NCBI RefSeq assembly: GCF_002072955.1
Contig: NZ_LPUF01000001.1
Span: 467,001 to 531,000 of the forward strand
DNA from: Methyloprofundus sedimenti
Lineage (GTDB): Bacteria; Pseudomonadota; Gammaproteobacteria; Methylococcales; Methylomonadaceae
Length of the DNA: 64,000 nucleotides
Reading direction: 5' to 3'
The notes beneath the pieces were generated by a model that made no database searches, had not been told where the DNA came from, and was given only the letters and a program-made list of their open reading frames with translations. A program made the translations under genes and the position numbers. Shown in pieces: positions 53,583 through 61,443 of this stretch. The stretch's first letter is position 1; every line of letters starts with the position of its first letter.

Positions 53583-53770
53583 ACCTGATTACCCATGAGT
53601 TTCCGCCAAGTTAAAACAACCAACTACTGAGTACGTCATTCCTGCATGCTCTTAGCAGGAATCTAACCAACAAGGAATAGATTCCCGATAAAAGACCTCG
53701 GGAATGACGCGTTATATTAAGTGTTACTGTCACTTCACCCTAATTTGGCGGAGGCTTCTGGGTAATCAGG
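53583..53770. mobile_element. MITE, copy 4 (best-preserved ends)
   Basis: 188 bases with terminal inverted repeats of about 30: CCTGATTACCCATGAG..CCGCCAAGTTA at the left and, read from the right, CCTGATTACCCAGAAG..CCGCCAAATTA. The interior carries both family hairpins: ATTCCTGCATG..TTAGCAGGAAT and ATTCCCGATAAAAGACCTCGGGAAT. The right end overlaps the last codons of the neighbouring minus-strand gene. Confidence 0.8.
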
Positions 53771-54590
53771 AAAGGAAATGAAAAAGAGGCCATTAGACGA
53801 ACAAACAACAAAATTACACCAACAATGAGAAAAATAATTGAGATATAAAACCCTTTTCTCATTGTTCCGGTTTTGCCCAGAATCGATTGCAAATCAGCAA
53901 TATACAGTGTAAGTAAAACATGCGATTGCTCCGTAACAACAGCATTGAACATATTGCTTAATAGGCTATTTAACTTATGCCGGTGGTCAATAATAATTTG
54001 AGCATGTTTTAATAATAACCTAAGCTGTTGTTTGGTTTTAGTGTTTAAAGTTACATTGACTGAGTCATTTTTAATGGTCTCGATCATTCCTGGTAGTTCA
54101 GACGGGTAGGACGAGTTGGTGCTTACATCTGATATGATAATGTTATGTTCCAGATTATTTAACTGCTCGATTAAATTATTAGTCTGACTTTGTTTTAGTA
54201 GCAGCTGTAATTGCGTGCTAGCTTCGGGGAAAAAAGCAGGGAATTTCGGTAAATCGCATGCAAACTTTTAAATTTTTCTGCCTCATTACTAAAGCTTAGT
54301 ACCGACCTATTTAGCGCAATGCTCTCTGGCGTATCTAGTGAAAGTTGTTGTGTGAGCCTGGTTAAGTTTTGCTGAACAAGCGTAACATGGTCATAATCAA
54401 TATGTTCTCCCCTGGAAACCTGGATAATAGCTTTACATAATAGAGAGGCTTGCTCATTAATATTCCAGATCAAATCCGTGTTTTTTTGATAATTCTTGTA
54501 GTCGACCTGGGCAAGGGAATAAAAACTTGTGGCTGATATTAGCATGGTCAGTATAAAGAGTAGAGGCAGGGCTTTTTTTACTCTATTCAT
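53740..54590 (-). pseudogene. membrane-anchored all-helical (DAHL-like) protein, frameshifted
   Basis: Frame one (54590-54195) has a signal/anchor helix (ALPLLFILTMLISATSFYSL) and helices with EHIDYDHVTLVQQNLTRL. It stops early. The next frame is open from FPEASTQLQLLLKQSQTNN through MIETIKN and ends in a transmembrane helix (FYISIIFLIVGVILLFV). One extra base in the T6/C4 run (54226-54235 plus strand) joins them into 283 aa. The layout is like the DAHL sensor domain usually attached to histidine kinases, but no kinase follows. Its last residues (LITQKPPPN) come from a MITE end. ATG overlaps the peroxidase TGA. Confidence 0.5.
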
Positions 54591-55558
54591 AAAGCAGTGT
54601 TTTGATATTGCCCAGTCAAGGTTTTAAGAAATAAAACAATTTTATTGATATCTTGTTGATTCGACGCTCGACCGAGTTGGTAGCGCATCATGATTGCTGT
54701 TGCATCTGCTAATGTTTTTGTGGAGCCATCATGAAAGTAAGGTGCTGTTAAATCAATATTTCTTAAACTCGGAACTTTAAAAACATATTTATCCTGCTCA
54801 TTTTGAGTTACCTGGAAACGACTTAAATCGGCAGCAGTGATATGACCTCTATCTGCAAAATAATCCCCCATCACACCAAAGCGTTGGTATAGATTACCTC
54901 CGACTGCAACTCCCTGATGGCAAGAAATGCAACCATATTGCTTAAAAAGTCTATATCCTTCAAGCTCCTCGGTTGTTAATACGTTGGGATTGTTTTTTAG
55001 GTATAAATCAAAACGGCTATTCGACGTGAGCAGGCTTTCTTCAAATTTCACCAGTGCAGACTTGATATTGATAATAGTTAGCCCCGTCGTAAATGCTTGA
55101 TTAAACTGTGCTATGTAAAAAGGGTCCTGCTCTAGTTTGGATAGAACTTCAGCCCATGAGCTATTCATTTCTATAGGATTGCTGATTGGGCCATCTATTT
55201 GATTCAGTAAATCTGCAGCACGCCCATCCCAGAACTGGCGAAAGTTAAGCGAACTATTAAACACAGTAGGTGAGTTAATCAGGCCCTTGTTACCATTAAC
55301 ACCACTTGAGACAACTTGACCATCTGCGCCACCATATTTTAGCGAATGGCAGCTAGCGCAGGACAGCTGGTTATTTTCTGACAGACGAACATCATTGAAC
55401 AGCAGGCGGCCTAATTCGACTTGATCAGGAGCACTGATAACAGGATCGGGGATGGGTTTTATCGGTTCATTTAACAGCGGTTTTGCGAGAGCAAAACGAC
55501 AAACTAGAACAAGTAATAAGCTTGTTAAAAAGTTTGCCATAGTGAGGTGGAGGGACAT
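54587..55558 (-). CDS. di-haem cytochrome c peroxidase / MauG-family protein
   Basis: 323 aa with a signal peptide (MANFLTSLLLVLVCRFALA) and two c-type haem sites, CASCH (~67-71) and CISCH (~209-213). Family landmarks are RQFWDGRAADLL after haem 1 and VPSLRNIDLTAPYFHDGS near the C-terminus, the latter offering a conserved His. Members reduce peroxide or oxidise protein/quinone-linked substrates in the periplasm. It begins ten bases after gmk and its TGA overlaps the ATG of the helical membrane protein, so the two are probably coupled partners. Confidence 0.92.
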   Translation of the reverse strand: MSLHLTMANFLTSLLLVLVCRFALAKPLLNEPIKPIPDPVISAPDQVELGRLLFNDVRLSENNQLSCASCHSLKYGGADGQVVSSGVNGNKGLINSPTVFNSSLNFRQFWDGRAADLLNQIDGPISNPIEMNSSWAEVLSKLEQDPFYIAQFNQAFTTGLTIINIKSALVKFEESLLTSNSRFDLYLKNNPNVLTTEELEGYRLFKQYGCISCHQGVAVGGNLYQRFGVMGDYFADRGHITAADLSRFQVTQNEQDKYVFKVPSLRNIDLTAPYFHDGSTKTLADATAIMMRYQLGRASNQQDINKIVLFLKTLTGQYQNTAL

Positions 55559-55568
55559 GGAAAATTTA

Positions 55569-56183
55569 TTAAACGAGTAAATCGACTAATAGCACCTTTA
55601 ACTTTTCTTGTTGTCTCTGAATATTTAATCTGTTTGCCAGGATAATTGATTTCAATTCTGTTAATGCGGTATTAAAATCATCATTGACTATCAGGTAGTC
55701 ATACTCTGCGTAATGACTCATTTCATTTACTGCATCCTGCATACGGCGGTCAATAACAGCCTCGCCATCTTGCCCGCGCTCTTTTAATCGGCGGCGCAAA
55801 ACTTCTGTGGAAGGCGGCAATATAAATATACTGATGCTATCAGGAAGTATGCGCCGGATTTGTTCTGCACCCTGCCAGTCTATTTCTAAAATAACATCTT
55901 TACCGCTATTCAGGCTTTGTTCAACTGAGCTTTGAGCCGTGCCATAAAAATTATCAAAAACCTGCGCGTATTCAAGAAAAGCTTGTTGATGAATCATTTT
56001 TTTGAATGTATCAACTGAGGTGAAAAAATAGTCAATAGCGTCAATTTCACCAGGCCTCCGGGCGCGAGTGGTGTGAGAAACAGAGACTATCAGTTTATCC
56101 ATATGAGGGATAAGTTTCTTGATTAAACTGGTTTTACCTGCACCAGAAGGTGCCGAGATAATAAAAAGTTTACCTTTGTTCAT
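55569..56183 (-). CDS. gmk: guanylate kinase
   Basis: 204 aa. P-loop [11 protein letters not shown], the GMP-binding stretch [32 protein letters not shown] and the lid [18 protein letters not shown]. It phosphorylates GMP to GDP in the cytoplasm. In many gammaproteobacteria gmk is followed by rpoZ; here it is followed by the cytochrome c peroxidase gene instead, with only ten bases between. Essential, intact housekeeping gene. Confidence 0.98.
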
Positions 56184-56994: not shown

Positions 56995-58182
56995 TTAGGG
57001 CTTGCTATCGTCGGCCTTGACAGGCTGCACCAGGATACCCGGTTTTTTTATTTTCTGTAGGCCTTGAGATATCACCTGTTCTCCATTTTTCAGTCCTTTT
57101 TTTATCACCCAATAGTGTTTATAAGCAAAATCTTTTTTGACCATTCGTTGTTCTACCTTATTATCTTTGCTCAGGACATAAACAAAACTGCCCTGCTGCG
57201 TTTCCAATAGAGCGGTTTGCGGTATCAGCAATGCATTGGGAAGTTTGCCTACAGTCAGATTTAAAGGTACATACTGCCCTGGTATCAACATCAATCCCAG
57301 ATTGTTTTGATCGTTTGGGTTTATTTTTCGATTGGGAAATATAGCTCTTGTCGCCATTGTATCGGTCTCGGGGTTATAGCTGGCACTGGTATAATCAACA
57401 TGCCCCTGTTCAGGGTATATTGCCCCGTTAGGCAGAATCAATGTGCCGGTAATATCACTGCGTTTTTTTGGCCCCAGACCCTCATTTGACAATTCCTGAA
57501 CTGTATAGGAATCGCGTCGGCTCACGTTGAAATCGACGTAAACTGGATTAAGCGAAGTCAAAGTCGTTAAATCAGTTTCCTGGGCGGTCACTATGGCGCC
57601 TTCATAGACCTGAGTTTCCTGTATCCAGCCGTCAAATGGTGCCACTATGAGGCAATATCCCAGATTTAGTGCAGCCTGTTCAATATCTGCTTTGTCTTTG
57701 TCTACTGAAGCAGCATACATTTTTTGCTTGGCGTCAGTGGCATCCCGTTTTTCTTTGGAAACAAAACCTTTTTTCGCCAACTCGTTATAACGTGCGAGTT
57801 CAAGGTTCCAGAACGCCAGACTGGCCTGATCTTTTTTCAACTGTGCATTGGCAGCATTCAGTTGTGCCTGAAACGGCCGCGGATCAATTTGATACAAAGG
57901 GTCGCCGGTTTTTACTTCAGTGCCTTCTACAAACAGACGCTGTTCGATATAACCCGAAACTTGCGGCTTGATAACCACATCTTTGTTAGCTTTGACGGTA
58001 CCAGAGAACTGCACGATGATCGGTACAGTCTGCTGCAGAACCGGGGCAGCAACGACTTTTGGTGGCGGTGGCGGCACTTGTTGCTTATCTTTACCTCCGC
58101 AACCGGATAGCAGCGATATTGTCAGCATAATGCCGGTCAGTATGTTCAGGCCGCTGTAATTGCTATAGAGATGTTTAGGCAT
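56995..58182 (-). CDS. RND efflux periplasmic adaptor (AcrA/MexA-like lipoprotein)
   Basis: 395 aa from ATG 58182 (GGTGAG upstream; a longer in-frame start at 58236 is less likely). Lipobox LLSG-C28, then a barrel-sandwich/hairpin structure: VVIKPQVSGYIEQRLFVEG, a coiled hairpin (QLNAANAQLKKDQASLAFW), VAPFDGWIQETQVYEG, and a beta-barrel/MP domain. It links the inner-membrane pump to an outer-membrane channel. The permease gene lies upstream rather than downstream, and no channel or regulator gene is adjacent. Confidence 0.93.
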   Translation of the reverse strand: MPKHLYSNYSGLNILTGIMLTISLLSGCGGKDKQQVPPPPPKVVAAPVLQQTVPIIVQFSGTVKANKDVVIKPQVSGYIEQRLFVEGTEVKTGDPLYQIDPRPFQAQLNAANAQLKKDQASLAFWNLELARYNELAKKGFVSKEKRDATDAKQKMYAASVDKDKADIEQAALNLGYCLIVAPFDGWIQETQVYEGAIVTAQETDLTTLTSLNPVYVDFNVSRRDSYTVQELSNEGLGPKKRSDITGTLILPNGAIYPEQGHVDYTSASYNPETDTMATRAIFPNRKINPNDQNNLGLMLIPGQYVPLNLTVGKLPNALLIPQTALLETQQGSFVYVLSKDNKVEQRMVKKDFAYKHYWVIKKGLKNGEQVISQGLQKIKKPGILVQPVKADDSKP

Positions 58183-58347
58183 TGTACTCACCAGAGTTCC
58201 AGAGTTTAATATAGTGTATATATACAGGCTGGACAAAAATAGTCATTTAATCCGCCATGTAATAATTTAAGATGCTGTACCAGCACTCAAGCAGGATAAC
58301 GCAGGAAAAATCTTGTTTTATCCTGAAGCAGCGTAAAATAACGCTGA

Positions 58348-61300
58348 TCACGATGATTTTCGCTCCCGAAGACGCTCGATGATAACATAAAACAAAGGCA
58401 CAAAAATGATCAACACAGTCGCCAGTGTTAAACCACCCACTACGGCTGTCCCCAATGAACGGCGAGCGTTAGCTCCTGCGCCACTGGCTAAGACCAGTGG
58501 CATCAAGCCGAGAATAAAAGCAAAAGCGGTCATTAGGATCGGGCGCAGACGGATTCGCGCAGCTTCCTTCGCCGACTCCAGAATGCCCATGCCATTATCA
58601 TGCAAATCCTTGGCAAACTGCACGATCAAAATGGAATTCTTGGCTACCAGCCCGATCAGCATTACCAGACCGATCTGACCATAAACATCAAGATTCATAT
58701 CGCGCAGTGCCAAAGCTCCGATAGCTCCCAGCAAACCCAAAGGGATCGCCAGCAAAATCATGATCGGCATGGACCAGCTTTCGTATTGCGCCGCCAGCAC
58801 CAAAAAGACAAAAATTAACGACATGGTAAAAACCACCGGAGCAAGGTTGCCGGCCTCCTTTTGCTGGTAAACCATGTTGGTCCATTGATAACCGAAACCC
58901 TTCGGTAAATAGTCCGCCGCCAGTTGCTCCATTACCACATTTGCCTGTTCCGAACTATAACCCGGCGCGGCGCCTCCGTTAATCTGTACCGAACTGTATT
59001 CGTTGTAATGTGGAATATTATAGGGTCCGACGATGGAGTTGATTGTCACAAATGCGCTGAGTGGAATCATATCTCCATCCTTGTTGCGTACCTGCAATTG
59101 AGTGATATCATACTCACGAAACCGGGCATCCTTTTCCGCCTGCAGATATACCCGGTACACCCGGCCATATTTATTGAACTGGTTGACGTATAGCGACCCC
59201 AGATTTATCTGCAGGGTATTGAAAATATCGTCTAAATCAACACCCCTGGTCATGGCTTTTACCCGGTCCACTTCGATAAAACGTTGGGGTACTTCTGGAT
59301 CATATGTAGTGTAAACACCTGCCAGCTCCGGTTTTTCATGTGCTTTGGCAATAAATTGCCGAACCACCTTGGTCATTTCTTCGACTCCAAGGCTGTTAAG
59401 ATCTTGAATTTCAAAGTTAAAGCCGCCGGTGGAACCCAGGCCAGGAATCGGTGGCGCATTGGCTACCATAATCACAGCTTCGGGAAGCTCAGAGACTTTT
59501 GCCCGAAGGTGTGCCATGATCGCCTTAAGCTGGGTATCCTTGCTCTTGCGTTGATCATAGGCATCCAGAACTACAAAAAAAATCCCTGCGGCAGGATCCT
59601 GGATTCCATCGATCAGATCATAACCATCAATTTCTATGCTGTGGCTAACTCCGGGAACTTCTTTGGCAATCTCCTCTATCTTGCGCATTAATTGTTGAGT
59701 GCGTTGAAAAGAGGCTCCAGAAGGTAACTTAGACATGATAAAAAGGTAACCCTGATCTTCTTCGGGGACAAATGCGGCTGGAACCGACCAGAAAAGTACT
59801 AAAGATAGTGCGCACAACCCAAGAAATGCTATTACCACCAGCCCCCATAATCTGACCAGGGTTTCGACAGCGTTGGCATAGGTATTGGCCAGTTTATCGA
59901 AAGCCCGGTTGAAGGCACGAAAAAAAGCATGTTTCTCGCCTGTTTCAGGACGCAGAAAAACTGCTGCCAACGCCGGACTCAAGGTTAAGGAGTTGAAACC
60001 GGATAACCCCACTGATATGGCGATGGTCAAGGCAAATTGGTTATACAACTGGCCGGTCATCCCGGGAATGAATGACACCGGAATAAATACTGCCATCAAT
60101 ACGATTGTTGTCGCTATAATCGGCCCGCGTACTTCGGACATGGCCAACTCGGTGACTTTTTGCATATCTGTTGCACCGTTCTCTAAATGTCGGTTGACGT
60201 TTTCCACAACCACAATCGCATCGTCAACTACCAATGCAACCGCTACTACCAGCCCCAGTAAACTCAGGGTATTGATGGAAAAACCGAACGCAAGCATAAA
60301 CGCCAGGGTACCGATTAGCGATACCGGAATCGCAATCGTAGGAATGAGTGTGCTGCGAAAATTCTGTAGAAAAAGAAACACCACCAGCATTACCAGAACA
60401 ATGGCTTCTAACAGGGTTATCAACACTTCCCGGGTCGACTCATCAATAAAACGGGTGGTATCGTAGTGCACATCCCATTGCATATCTTCCGGGAAATGTT
60501 CAGCCAGATCGTTCATTGTGGCACGTACTTGCTTGGCGATATCAATGGAATTGGCATTGGCCAGCTGATATACGGCGATAGCTGCGGTAGGGCCTCCATC
60601 AAGATGAGTGGACCAGGTATAATCCTCGGAGCCGAGCTCTACTCTGCCCACATCTTTGATCCTGACCACAGTTCCATCCGGATTGGCGCGAATCACAATA
60701 TTTTCGAACTGTTCCACATTGTCCAGACGCCCCAGAGCATTAAGCTGAAATGCAAATGTCTGGCCGATCGGGGCCGGTGGATCCCCCAACTTACCAGCCG
60801 CGACCTGGTTATTCTGTTCCTTTATCGAGTTTTCCACGTCCATTGCAGTCATCCCCATATTGGCCAGACGCTCTGGATCTAGCCAGATACGCATTGCATA
60901 TTTACGCAGGCCAAAGTTATTGATCGACGCCACCCCTTCAATACGAGCCAGTCGGTCGGTGATATGGATATCGGCATAATTTTGCAGATAAGCTTGGTCG
61001 AGACTTCCTTTGGGGGAAGTCAAGTTGACGATCAGAACAATATTGCTGGACTGTTTGGTAATGGTCAGCCCTACCTGATTGACTTCGGGCGGCAGCTGCG
61101 ACAGCGCCTGATTGCTGCGTGTCAACGCCTCCATCTGAGCGATGGATTGATCATATCCAACCTTGAAAGTCATGGTAATGATGGCATCACCATTGTTGGT
61201 GCTGTTAGAGGACATGTAAATCATCCCCTCGGCTCCGTTAAGCTGTTGCTCCAGCGGGGTCGTCACGGTTTTTGCAACGACATCTGAACTGGCACCGATA

Positions 61301-61443
61301 TATTGCGTGGATACCTGTATCTGCGAAGGGACTAGCGGTGGATATTGGGCAATCGGTAATACCAGCATACTGATTATACCGGCCAGGATCATCATCAAGG
61401 CAATAGCGGCGGCAAAGATGGGGCGTTTGATAAAAAAATTCAT
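58348..61443 (-). CDS. RND multidrug efflux permease (AcrB/MexB-like, HAE-1)
   Basis: 1031 aa, usual length. N-terminus MNFFIKRPIFAAAIALMMIL, periplasmic TLEQQLNG region, the proton-relay Asp pair in LVVDDAIVVVENVNRH and the relay Lys in GLVAKNSILIVQFAKDL, plus the ending ...VVGGLTLATVLIIFVPLFYV. It exports hydrophobic compounds from periplasm and membrane by proton antiport. RBS AGGAAG precedes the ATG. Gene order permease-adaptor is reversed relative to the common arrangement. Confidence 0.97.
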   Translation of the reverse strand: MNFFIKRPIFAAAIALMMILAGIISMLVLPIAQYPPLVPSQIQVSTQYIGASSDVVAKTVTTPLEQQLNGAEGMIYMSSNSTNNGDAIITMTFKVGYDQSIAQMEALTRSNQALSQLPPEVNQVGLTITKQSSNIVLIVNLTSPKGSLDQAYLQNYADIHITDRLARIEGVASINNFGLRKYAMRIWLDPERLANMGMTAMDVENSIKEQNNQVAAGKLGDPPAPIGQTFAFQLNALGRLDNVEQFENIVIRANPDGTVVRIKDVGRVELGSEDYTWSTHLDGGPTAAIAVYQLANANSIDIAKQVRATMNDLAEHFPEDMQWDVHYDTTRFIDESTREVLITLLEAIVLVMLVVFLFLQNFRSTLIPTIAIPVSLIGTLAFMLAFGFSINTLSLLGLVVAVALVVDDAIVVVENVNRHLENGATDMQKVTELAMSEVRGPIIATTIVLMAVFIPVSFIPGMTGQLYNQFALTIAISVGLSGFNSLTLSPALAAVFLRPETGEKHAFFRAFNRAFDKLANTYANAVETLVRLWGLVVIAFLGLCALSLVLFWSVPAAFVPEEDQGYLFIMSKLPSGASFQRTQQLMRKIEEIAKEVPGVSHSIEIDGYDLIDGIQDPAAGIFFVVLDAYDQRKSKDTQLKAIMAHLRAKVSELPEAVIMVANAPPIPGLGSTGGFNFEIQDLNSLGVEEMTKVVRQFIAKAHEKPELAGVYTTYDPEVPQRFIEVDRVKAMTRGVDLDDIFNTLQINLGSLYVNQFNKYGRVYRVYLQAEKDARFREYDITQLQVRNKDGDMIPLSAFVTINSIVGPYNIPHYNEYSSVQINGGAAPGYSSEQANVVMEQLAADYLPKGFGYQWTNMVYQQKEAGNLAPVVFTMSLIFVFLVLAAQYESWSMPIMILLAIPLGLLGAIGALALRDMNLDVYGQIGLVMLIGLVAKNSILIVQFAKDLHDNGMGILESAKEAARIRLRPILMTAFAFILGLMPLVLASGAGANARRSLGTAVVGGLTLATVLIIFVPLFYVIIERLRERKSS

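Follow-up and report, generated by a model that had tools for sequence, protein, structure and literature searches.

Why should the gene for a di-haem peroxidase run into that of a membrane protein whose sensory domain leads to no output? The question is raised by a 64,000-nucleotide stretch of the Methyloprofundus sedimenti genome (hereafter the window; G000:C1:467001-531000, from a genome of 4.29 Mb), where the minus strand carries in succession gmk, a gene for a di-haem cytochrome c peroxidase (CCP) and a gene for a membrane protein with a DAHL domain. The CCP gene (54587..55558, minus strand, 323 amino acids; PF03150, E 3.5e-53) shares the four bases of an ATGA with the start of the DAHL gene (54587..54590, minus strand; sequence context TTTATGAATAG), an overlap recorded in a first-pass annotation of the locus, which suggested that the peroxidase and its helical partner work as a unit. 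Here we find that genes of these two families are direct neighbours well beyond the relatives of M. sedimenti, and the two proteins most likely function together. We propose, with a probability of about 0.6, that they form a two-protein receptor with the CCP as its periplasmic sensor subunit; the window quite probably holds a relic of such a receptor.

The assignment of the helical membrane protein to the DAHL family held up. Its gene lies on the minus strand in two pieces: an open reading frame (ORF) at 54195..54590 encodes the first transmembrane helix and the first half of the domain (PF19443 positions 2-108, E 3.5e-6), and another at 53740..54087 encodes the remaining domain, the second transmembrane helix and a short tail (PF19443 positions 160-214, E 5.1e-6). 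Alone, the two ORFs score 27.3 and 26.8 bits against PF19443, both below the Pfam cut-off of 38 bits; in a whole-genome search the second piece, matched over a greater length, reaches 42.3 bits. The orthologue in G007, the Bathymodiolus platifrons symbiont whose intact copy served for modelling, is a stand-alone protein of 269 amino acids that matches DAHL from end to end at 111.8 bits. Its AlphaFold2 model consists of helices only (pLDDT 94.4, pTM 0.84) and places a double helical bundle between two membrane helices. The nearest solved folds returned by Foldseek were the helical bimodular domain of McpS (TM-score 0.57/0.64, E 0.012), TorS and PilJ.

How widespread is the pairing? PF19443 was searched in 41 genomes of relatives, 369 of the class, 398 of the phylum and 289 of the class of G653, which we take to be Alphaproteobacteria. 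Above-cut-off DAHL domains occurred in 48 of the 369, 51 of the 398 and 7 of the 289 genomes (three overlapping samples), and 78 genomes of the class of G438 yielded no new one. The regions around these matches were scanned with a profile built from 20 CCPs. A CCP gene lay directly upstream on the same strand for 128 of 145 above-cut-off DAHL domains in 113 other genomes, a count of 127 rows from the scripted scan and 18 entered by hand, with the window gene and repeats left out. Pairing followed the strength of the match, from 8/17 at 38-60 bits through 43/49 at 60-100 bits to 77/79 at 100 bits or more, and four of the 17 unpaired domains had less than 200 bp of contig upstream. The Pfam CCP_MauG model gave 79 above-cut-off matches in 22 of these genomes, or about 3.6 per genome; with an assumed 3400 or so genes per genome, adjacency would arise by chance in about 0.1% of cases. 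The adjacency of CCP and DAHL genes is far beyond this. The first-pass annotation had asked whether the neighbourhood is conserved in related genomes, and it is, across proteobacterial classes and in a cyanobacterium; neither of the outcomes that it named as fatal to the idea, a helical protein matching no DAHL model or a neighbourhood without conservation, was encountered.

The spacing is tight: among 112 pairs, 74 have a gap from CCP to DAHL of exactly -4 and 12 have one of -1. The DAHL start was taken as the one closest to the end of the CCP gene, a choice that biases the gaps towards short values. The pair also occurs on plasmids. A tblastn search gave 14 plasmid records, of which 12 were fetched (the other two lacked annotation), and a CCP or c-type cytochrome gene lay directly upstream in 11 of the 12; in the exceptional plasmid an apparently broken CCP, in two frames, lies about 3 kb downstream of the DAHL gene. 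The plasmid hosts include the cyanobacterium Gloeocapsa PCC 7428 together with rhizobia, Azospirillaceae and Vitreoscilla, members of the Alpha- and Betaproteobacteria, and 7 of the 12 plasmid receptors carry the annotation 'VirA-like sensor kinase'. Beyond response regulators, no common gene was seen beside the pair in eight wider neighbourhoods, whose ORFs were read by eye, and the 12 plasmid neighbourhoods.

Matches at the edges of this survey have features of their own. Six sub-cut-off matches were inspected, of which five had at least 1 kb of upstream sequence and no CCP and one lay near a contig end. L072 (G325:C533) is the sole strong match that has upstream sequence yet no CCP; it scores 180.9 bits, has a GGDEF output, and is preceded by a divergent ORF that appears patatin-like by eye. 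L125, L126 and L129-L132 are DAHL-like histidine kinases of 573-601 amino acids that score weakly against Pfam and lack a CCP; they may form a second group, one without pairing. In G040 and G035 there is a larger cassette (L060:4209-9716 and L061:4484-10136): on one strand, after the CCP and the DAHL kinase, come another CCP, different from the first, and a protein of about 360 amino acids of the twin-arginine translocation (Tat) type that looks like a phosphoesterase by eye; a response-regulator gene lies on the opposite strand.

The paired peroxidases are distinct from other CCPs of the same genomes. Two CxxCH haem motifs are present in the window CCP and in 110 of the 112 paired CCPs; the two exceptions are short ORFs (219 and 227 amino acids). 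In the window (all minus strand) the N-terminal haem motif, CASCH(SL), is encoded at 55340..55360 and the C-terminal haem motif, which bears the signature of DAHL-paired CCPs (CISCHQGVAVGGN), at 54893..54931. Between them, at 55166..55234, alignment to the Pseudomonas aeruginosa CCP places a segment FWDGR...NQ...IEM whose Trp, Gln and Glu, which we take to be the peroxidatic-site residues, are all retained; the segment at 54686..54703 contains the Met275-equivalent, presumably the axial ligand of the C-terminal haem. In P. aeruginosa numbering, Asn209 is found in 113 of 113 paired CCPs (window included) against 5 of 36 unpaired ones, and position 202 is Gln in 105 of the 113, giving CHQGxxxGGN, and Asn in eight. 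Trp94 and the Cys and His residues of the second haem motif are invariant in the 113, and the Met275-equivalent is present in 108, the window's among them. The signature was then surveyed in 30 of the 79 above-cut-off CCP matches and 30 further loci, a set that overlaps in part with the 112 pairs used to define it. Of these 60 CCP loci, 24 have CHQGxxxGGN, of which 22 were paired by automated scan, L234 (= G122) was paired in another scan and L018 lies at a contig end; none of the 36 loci that lack it was paired. On a CCP tree with 63 rows from pairs and 38 from unpaired loci, the paired/unpaired label requires two changes, against a shuffled mean of 30.8; the tree was built by a quick method with some long branches, omits L018 and includes 40 of 110 paired CCPs drawn at random.

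Within this subfamily the catalytic residues have been lost more than once. Glu114 is present in 36/36 unpaired and 86/113 paired CCPs (27 lack it, at least one of them a truncated ORF; Fisher p 0.0003, relatedness ignored), and Gln104 in 36/36 and 100/113 (13 lack it; Fisher p 0.04, relatedness likewise ignored). When the two truncated CCPs and the window's are excluded, the paired counts are 84/110 and 98/110, leaving 26 and 12 without the residue, and on the tree of these 110 paired CCPs Glu114 has changed at least 9 times and Gln104 at least 12. Conservation in the DAHL domain also differs with pairing: D67, N116 and H197 are found in 103, 94 and 88 of 104 paired DAHL domains (103 of the 112 plus that of G007); among 17 unpaired domains, of which 12 pass the cut-off and 5 fall short of it, they are found in 8, 5 and 3.

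The cytoplasmic portion of the receptor is far more variable. Among relatives in Methyloprofundus the DAHL domain forms the N-terminal part of a PAS-GGDEF-EAL protein in G014, G002, G009 and G003 and of a PAS hybrid kinase in G004; the two genomes from a different family of the order, G040 and G035, have it at the head of a simple histidine kinase, and G012, G015 and G017 have kinase-type sequences of similar build, as read from sequence, some ending at contig ends. Across 103 C-terminal parts (the alignment used 103 of 109 tails, many of which end at the locus boundary) we counted PAS in 81, HisKA in 55, GGDEF in 34, receiver in 23, EAL in 20 and a class III cyclase in one. The DAHL tree implies at least 13 switches between kinase and cyclic di-GMP (c-di-GMP) output among 85 receptors classified by motif; this count leaves out three output-less receptors and 24 of the 112 classed as 'other', many of them seemingly kinases or EAL proteins that the motifs did not catch or that run past the end of the sequence retrieved. 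Since the output switches while the CCP stays, the constant unit is CCP plus DAHL and the output is a plug-in. The three output-less receptors among the 112 are L109 (319 amino acids with a second membrane helix, by eye), L122 and L186, which stops before that helix and may be broken. L088 and L127 end after the DAHL domain and an apparent PAS domain (389 and 410 amino acids) and are perhaps split from their kinase.

Tree distances of CCP and DAHL also correlate, with r 0.66, the best of 500 shuffles reaching 0.24. In genomes with several pairs, 26 of 32 comparisons favour the true partner over a swapped one, many of them narrowly; comparisons within one genome are not independent. Two of the 112 pairs, L087 and L090, were omitted from the trees used for these distances and for the catalytic residues.

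What, then, has become of the receptor in the window? The first-pass annotation saw a sensor without a kinase, which is correct for the window and for G007, both output-less; this is not the usual state of the family, and judged against the relatives it appears to reflect loss of a PAS-GGDEF-EAL output in the window's lineage. No output domain or remnant was found past the second transmembrane helix within about 600-700 bp around the DAHL end in the window and in G007. The idea of an output split off rather than lost in G000 was rejected, as no copy above 44% identity was found elsewhere in that genome and no remnant in the stretch just named. Matches to the GGDEF/EAL output number 13 in G000 and 5 in G007 against 34 in G014, 28 in G002 and 66 in G009, and both genomes therefore seem to have shed much of their c-di-GMP signalling. 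The final codons of the DAHL ORF fall within a repeat element of about 190 bp (53584..53773, identified by repeat search) with 30-nucleotide inverted repeats at its ends (53584-53613 and 53741-53770), which surrounds a palindrome resembling repetitive extragenic palindromic (REP) sequences (53634-53709). G000 holds further copies at C1:1400222-1400411 (96%, 190 bp) and C1:774938-775102 (84%, partial, 165 bp); a 211-bp query gave at least 42 matches in the window's genome and at least 28 in G007 (lower bounds, with 40 candidates scored per genome), and the core of the element, GTCATTCCTGC, has 9 near-matches in the window against 0.87 expected. In addition, three-frame translation places a change of frame at a G4A6 run (about 54226-54235), which may be a mutation or a sequencing error.

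With its output lost, its end within a repeat element and its frame broken, the window receptor probably no longer signals. Between the window and G007 the ratio of non-synonymous to synonymous differences (pN/pS) is 0.42 and 0.48 for the two DAHL pieces, close to the 0.44 of the fused DAHL domain (G014 against G002) and above the 0.17-0.20 of the CCP; constraint may thus have acted on the receptor during some of the time that it has spent without an output. On this sequence record we consider the window receptor, with good though not complete assurance, to be a relic beside an intact and possibly active peroxidase.

Our proposal for the complete receptors is built on observations given above: the two families, the near-universal pairing of strong matches, the tight starts, the CCP signature, the correlated trees, the exchangeable outputs and the absent output in the window. 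From these we infer binding, haem-state sensing and a peroxide signal, as follows. A secreted di-haem peroxidase would be co-produced with a membrane receptor bearing a periplasmic DAHL domain of two stacked helical bundles, on which it would dock. The haem state of the CCP would shift on reaction with H2O2 or another oxidant, or with the redox state of its electron donors, and this shift would change the conformation of the receptor so as to switch its cytoplasmic output, be it a histidine kinase, a PAS-GGDEF(-EAL) enzyme of c-di-GMP metabolism or, once, a class III cyclase. For a CCP, peroxide is the natural guess as the signal. Sensing rather than detoxification is suggested because the catalytic residues have repeatedly been lost with the haems kept, even though most paired CCPs retain them. 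The window would represent a decayed member, with a CCP gene intact down to its catalytic residues and a degraded receptor. We would lay even odds on the broader statement that di-haem peroxidases, catalytically degenerate in several lineages, have been recruited as the sensing subunits of a receptor class that extends across proteobacterial classes to at least one cyanobacterium; by contact they would report periplasmic H2O2 or the redox state of electron carriers to DAHL, one module thereby serving kinase, c-di-GMP or (once) cyclase outputs.

Several points weigh against this proposal. Nine of the 17 weak matches (38-60 bits) are unpaired, three of the nine at contig ends, and the surveyed genomes are not independent of one another, several coming from one genus. 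Shared species history and linkage can also give correlated trees, and over 110 pairs (effective number 46) covariation between the CCP and DAHL proteins did not rise above that in shuffled pairings. The fold match is weak, with no Foldseek match at E 0.001 or better and a TM-score of 0.32 for TorS, and the neighbouring genes yield no shared target. Loss of the distal His71, considered as a hallmark of paired CCPs, was rejected, as 30 of 36 unpaired CCPs also lack this residue. Finally, the window CCP retains Gln104 and Glu114, as do most paired CCPs, and so may simply be a working peroxidase.

A rival explanation is that the DAHL receptor binds a small molecule on its own and the CCP is a co-regulated detoxifying enzyme kept alongside. 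CCPs are, after all, peroxidases, most paired ones and that of the window with catalytic residues in place; DAHL domains without an upstream CCP exist (17/145, four at contig ends); and the DAHL domain of Campylobacter jejuni Tlp10 is reported to detect several classes of ligand, malate included (PMC9796306). A mere enzyme, however, would have no need to sit immediately beside the receptor gene, as the CCP does in 77 of 79 strong matches, nor need it come from a distinct CCP subfamily when the genomes hold other CCPs, and it is hard to see why Glu114 or Gln104 should be lost in some paired but in none of 36 unpaired CCPs while the haem motifs and Trp94 stay. We consider this explanation unlikely, if the strongest competitor to a CCP-DAHL receptor along with the possibility of a new function in the window's own lineage, where the output-less DAHL protein might have taken on another job, for example anchoring the peroxidase to the membrane or regulating it, and would be no relic at all. 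The intact stand-alone protein of 269 amino acids in G007, the pN/pS values of 0.42 and 0.48, which resemble the 0.44 of the fused domain and are well below 1, and the three other output-less receptors among 112 are consistent with such a role. The broken frame in the window and the end supplied there by a repeat element argue for decay instead, and the few GGDEF/EAL matches in both genomes with the truncated form are as expected from loss of the pathway; we regard a new job as a doubtful reading of this lineage.

MauG-type enzymes act on protein substrates, and CCP and MauG share one Pfam family, so that the di-haem enzyme might oxidise a Tyr or Trp of the DAHL domain to produce a cofactor or cross-link. 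MauG has Tyr in place of the axial Met, whereas 108 of 113 paired CCPs have Met at that position. The CCP orthologue of G007 is closest to the solved chains 9qdt, 1iqc and 3o5c, and MauG chains match it far more weakly (E about 1e-18 against 2e-83 for 1iqc). The window peroxidase is, by sequence, of the bCcp type, and the MauG label of the first-pass annotation was too specific. Nor does the DAHL domain offer a near-invariant Trp or Tyr as target, the best being Tyr66 (80/104), and maturation of this kind seems very improbable. That the adjacency is functionally meaningless, through chance or through hitchhiking such as the gmk linkage in the window's clade, is refuted by the survey, with about 0.1% expected (on the assumed 3400 or so genes per genome) against 88% observed in several classes and a cyanobacterium, and is given practically no weight.

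The gmk gene (guanylate kinase; 55569..56183, minus strand; PF00625, E 1.1e-56) is a neighbour outside the conserved unit. It had been placed in one operon with the pair, the peroxidase starting ten bases after it. The ten bases are right for the ORFs as called, but an in-frame ATG at 55540, which suits the start in the G007 relative by eye, is likely the true CCP start and gives a gap of 28 bases. Membership of gmk in the unit was ruled out, since it adjoins the CCP gene in only 5 of 11 judgeable genomes, all of one clade (G000, G007, G014, G010 and G002), and is not adjacent in G009, G003, G012, G004, G040 and G035; in G015 and G017 contig ends intervene and linkage is not judgeable. Upstream of gmk, ORFs read by eye at 56995-61443 encode an ordinary resistance-nodulation-division (RND) efflux pair, a membrane-fusion protein and a pump of 1031 amino acids. 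A scan with the window CCP gave only two named relatives, the Bathymodiolus platifrons methanotrophic gill symbiont (81% identity) and a Methyloprofundus metagenome-assembled genome (75%).

The closest parallel that we know to the proposed division of labour is the TorT-TorS system of Escherichia coli. As described in PMC11727998, the TorS kinase is activated by TorT, which detects trimethylamine N-oxide (TMAO), and a c-type cytochrome, TorC, binds the periplasmic domain of TorS with a dissociation constant near 1 micromolar; a review gives TorS as all-helical with TorT/TMAO (PMC8534201). In TorS the all-helical periplasmic domain of a membrane kinase reads a periplasmic partner; in the receptor proposed here the DAHL domain would do likewise, its partner being encoded beside it in 128 of 145 cases, and it is on this analogy that the CCP may be cast as the periplasmic reader and DAHL as the transducer. 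The systems differ in that the partner is a di-haem peroxidase instead of a TMAO-detecting TorT, that DAHL is a separate Pfam family and that the outputs include c-di-GMP enzymes. Tlp10 of C. jejuni has the same named type of domain; it is a chemotaxis receptor reported to detect small molecules, in passages of PMC9796306 that mention no CCP partner. With classical bCcp enzymes (e.g. 1eb7 and 1iqc) the paired CCPs share the two CxxCH haems, the axial Met and Trp94, in alignments over nearly the whole length; unlike them they mostly carry CHQGxxxGGN (105/113), sometimes lack Glu114 or Gln104 (27 and 13 of 113) and are made with a receptor. Six proteins of rhizobia and Azospirillaceae that carry the annotation 'two-component system VirA-like sensor kinase' match DAHL and directly follow a CCP or c-type cytochrome gene; their annotation mentions no CCP and no shared function.

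Full-text searches of open-licence papers in PubMed Central pointed to no description of the CCP-DAHL pair, which appears to be undescribed although it is widespread. To our knowledge, the sensing of oxidants by bacteria outside the cytoplasm is poorly understood. If our proposal is correct, a candidate signal could be assigned to many kinases and c-di-GMP enzymes that have none so far, and a protein partner to the DAHL domain, and the 'VirA-like' kinases of rhizobia would be re-read as haem-coupled receptors.

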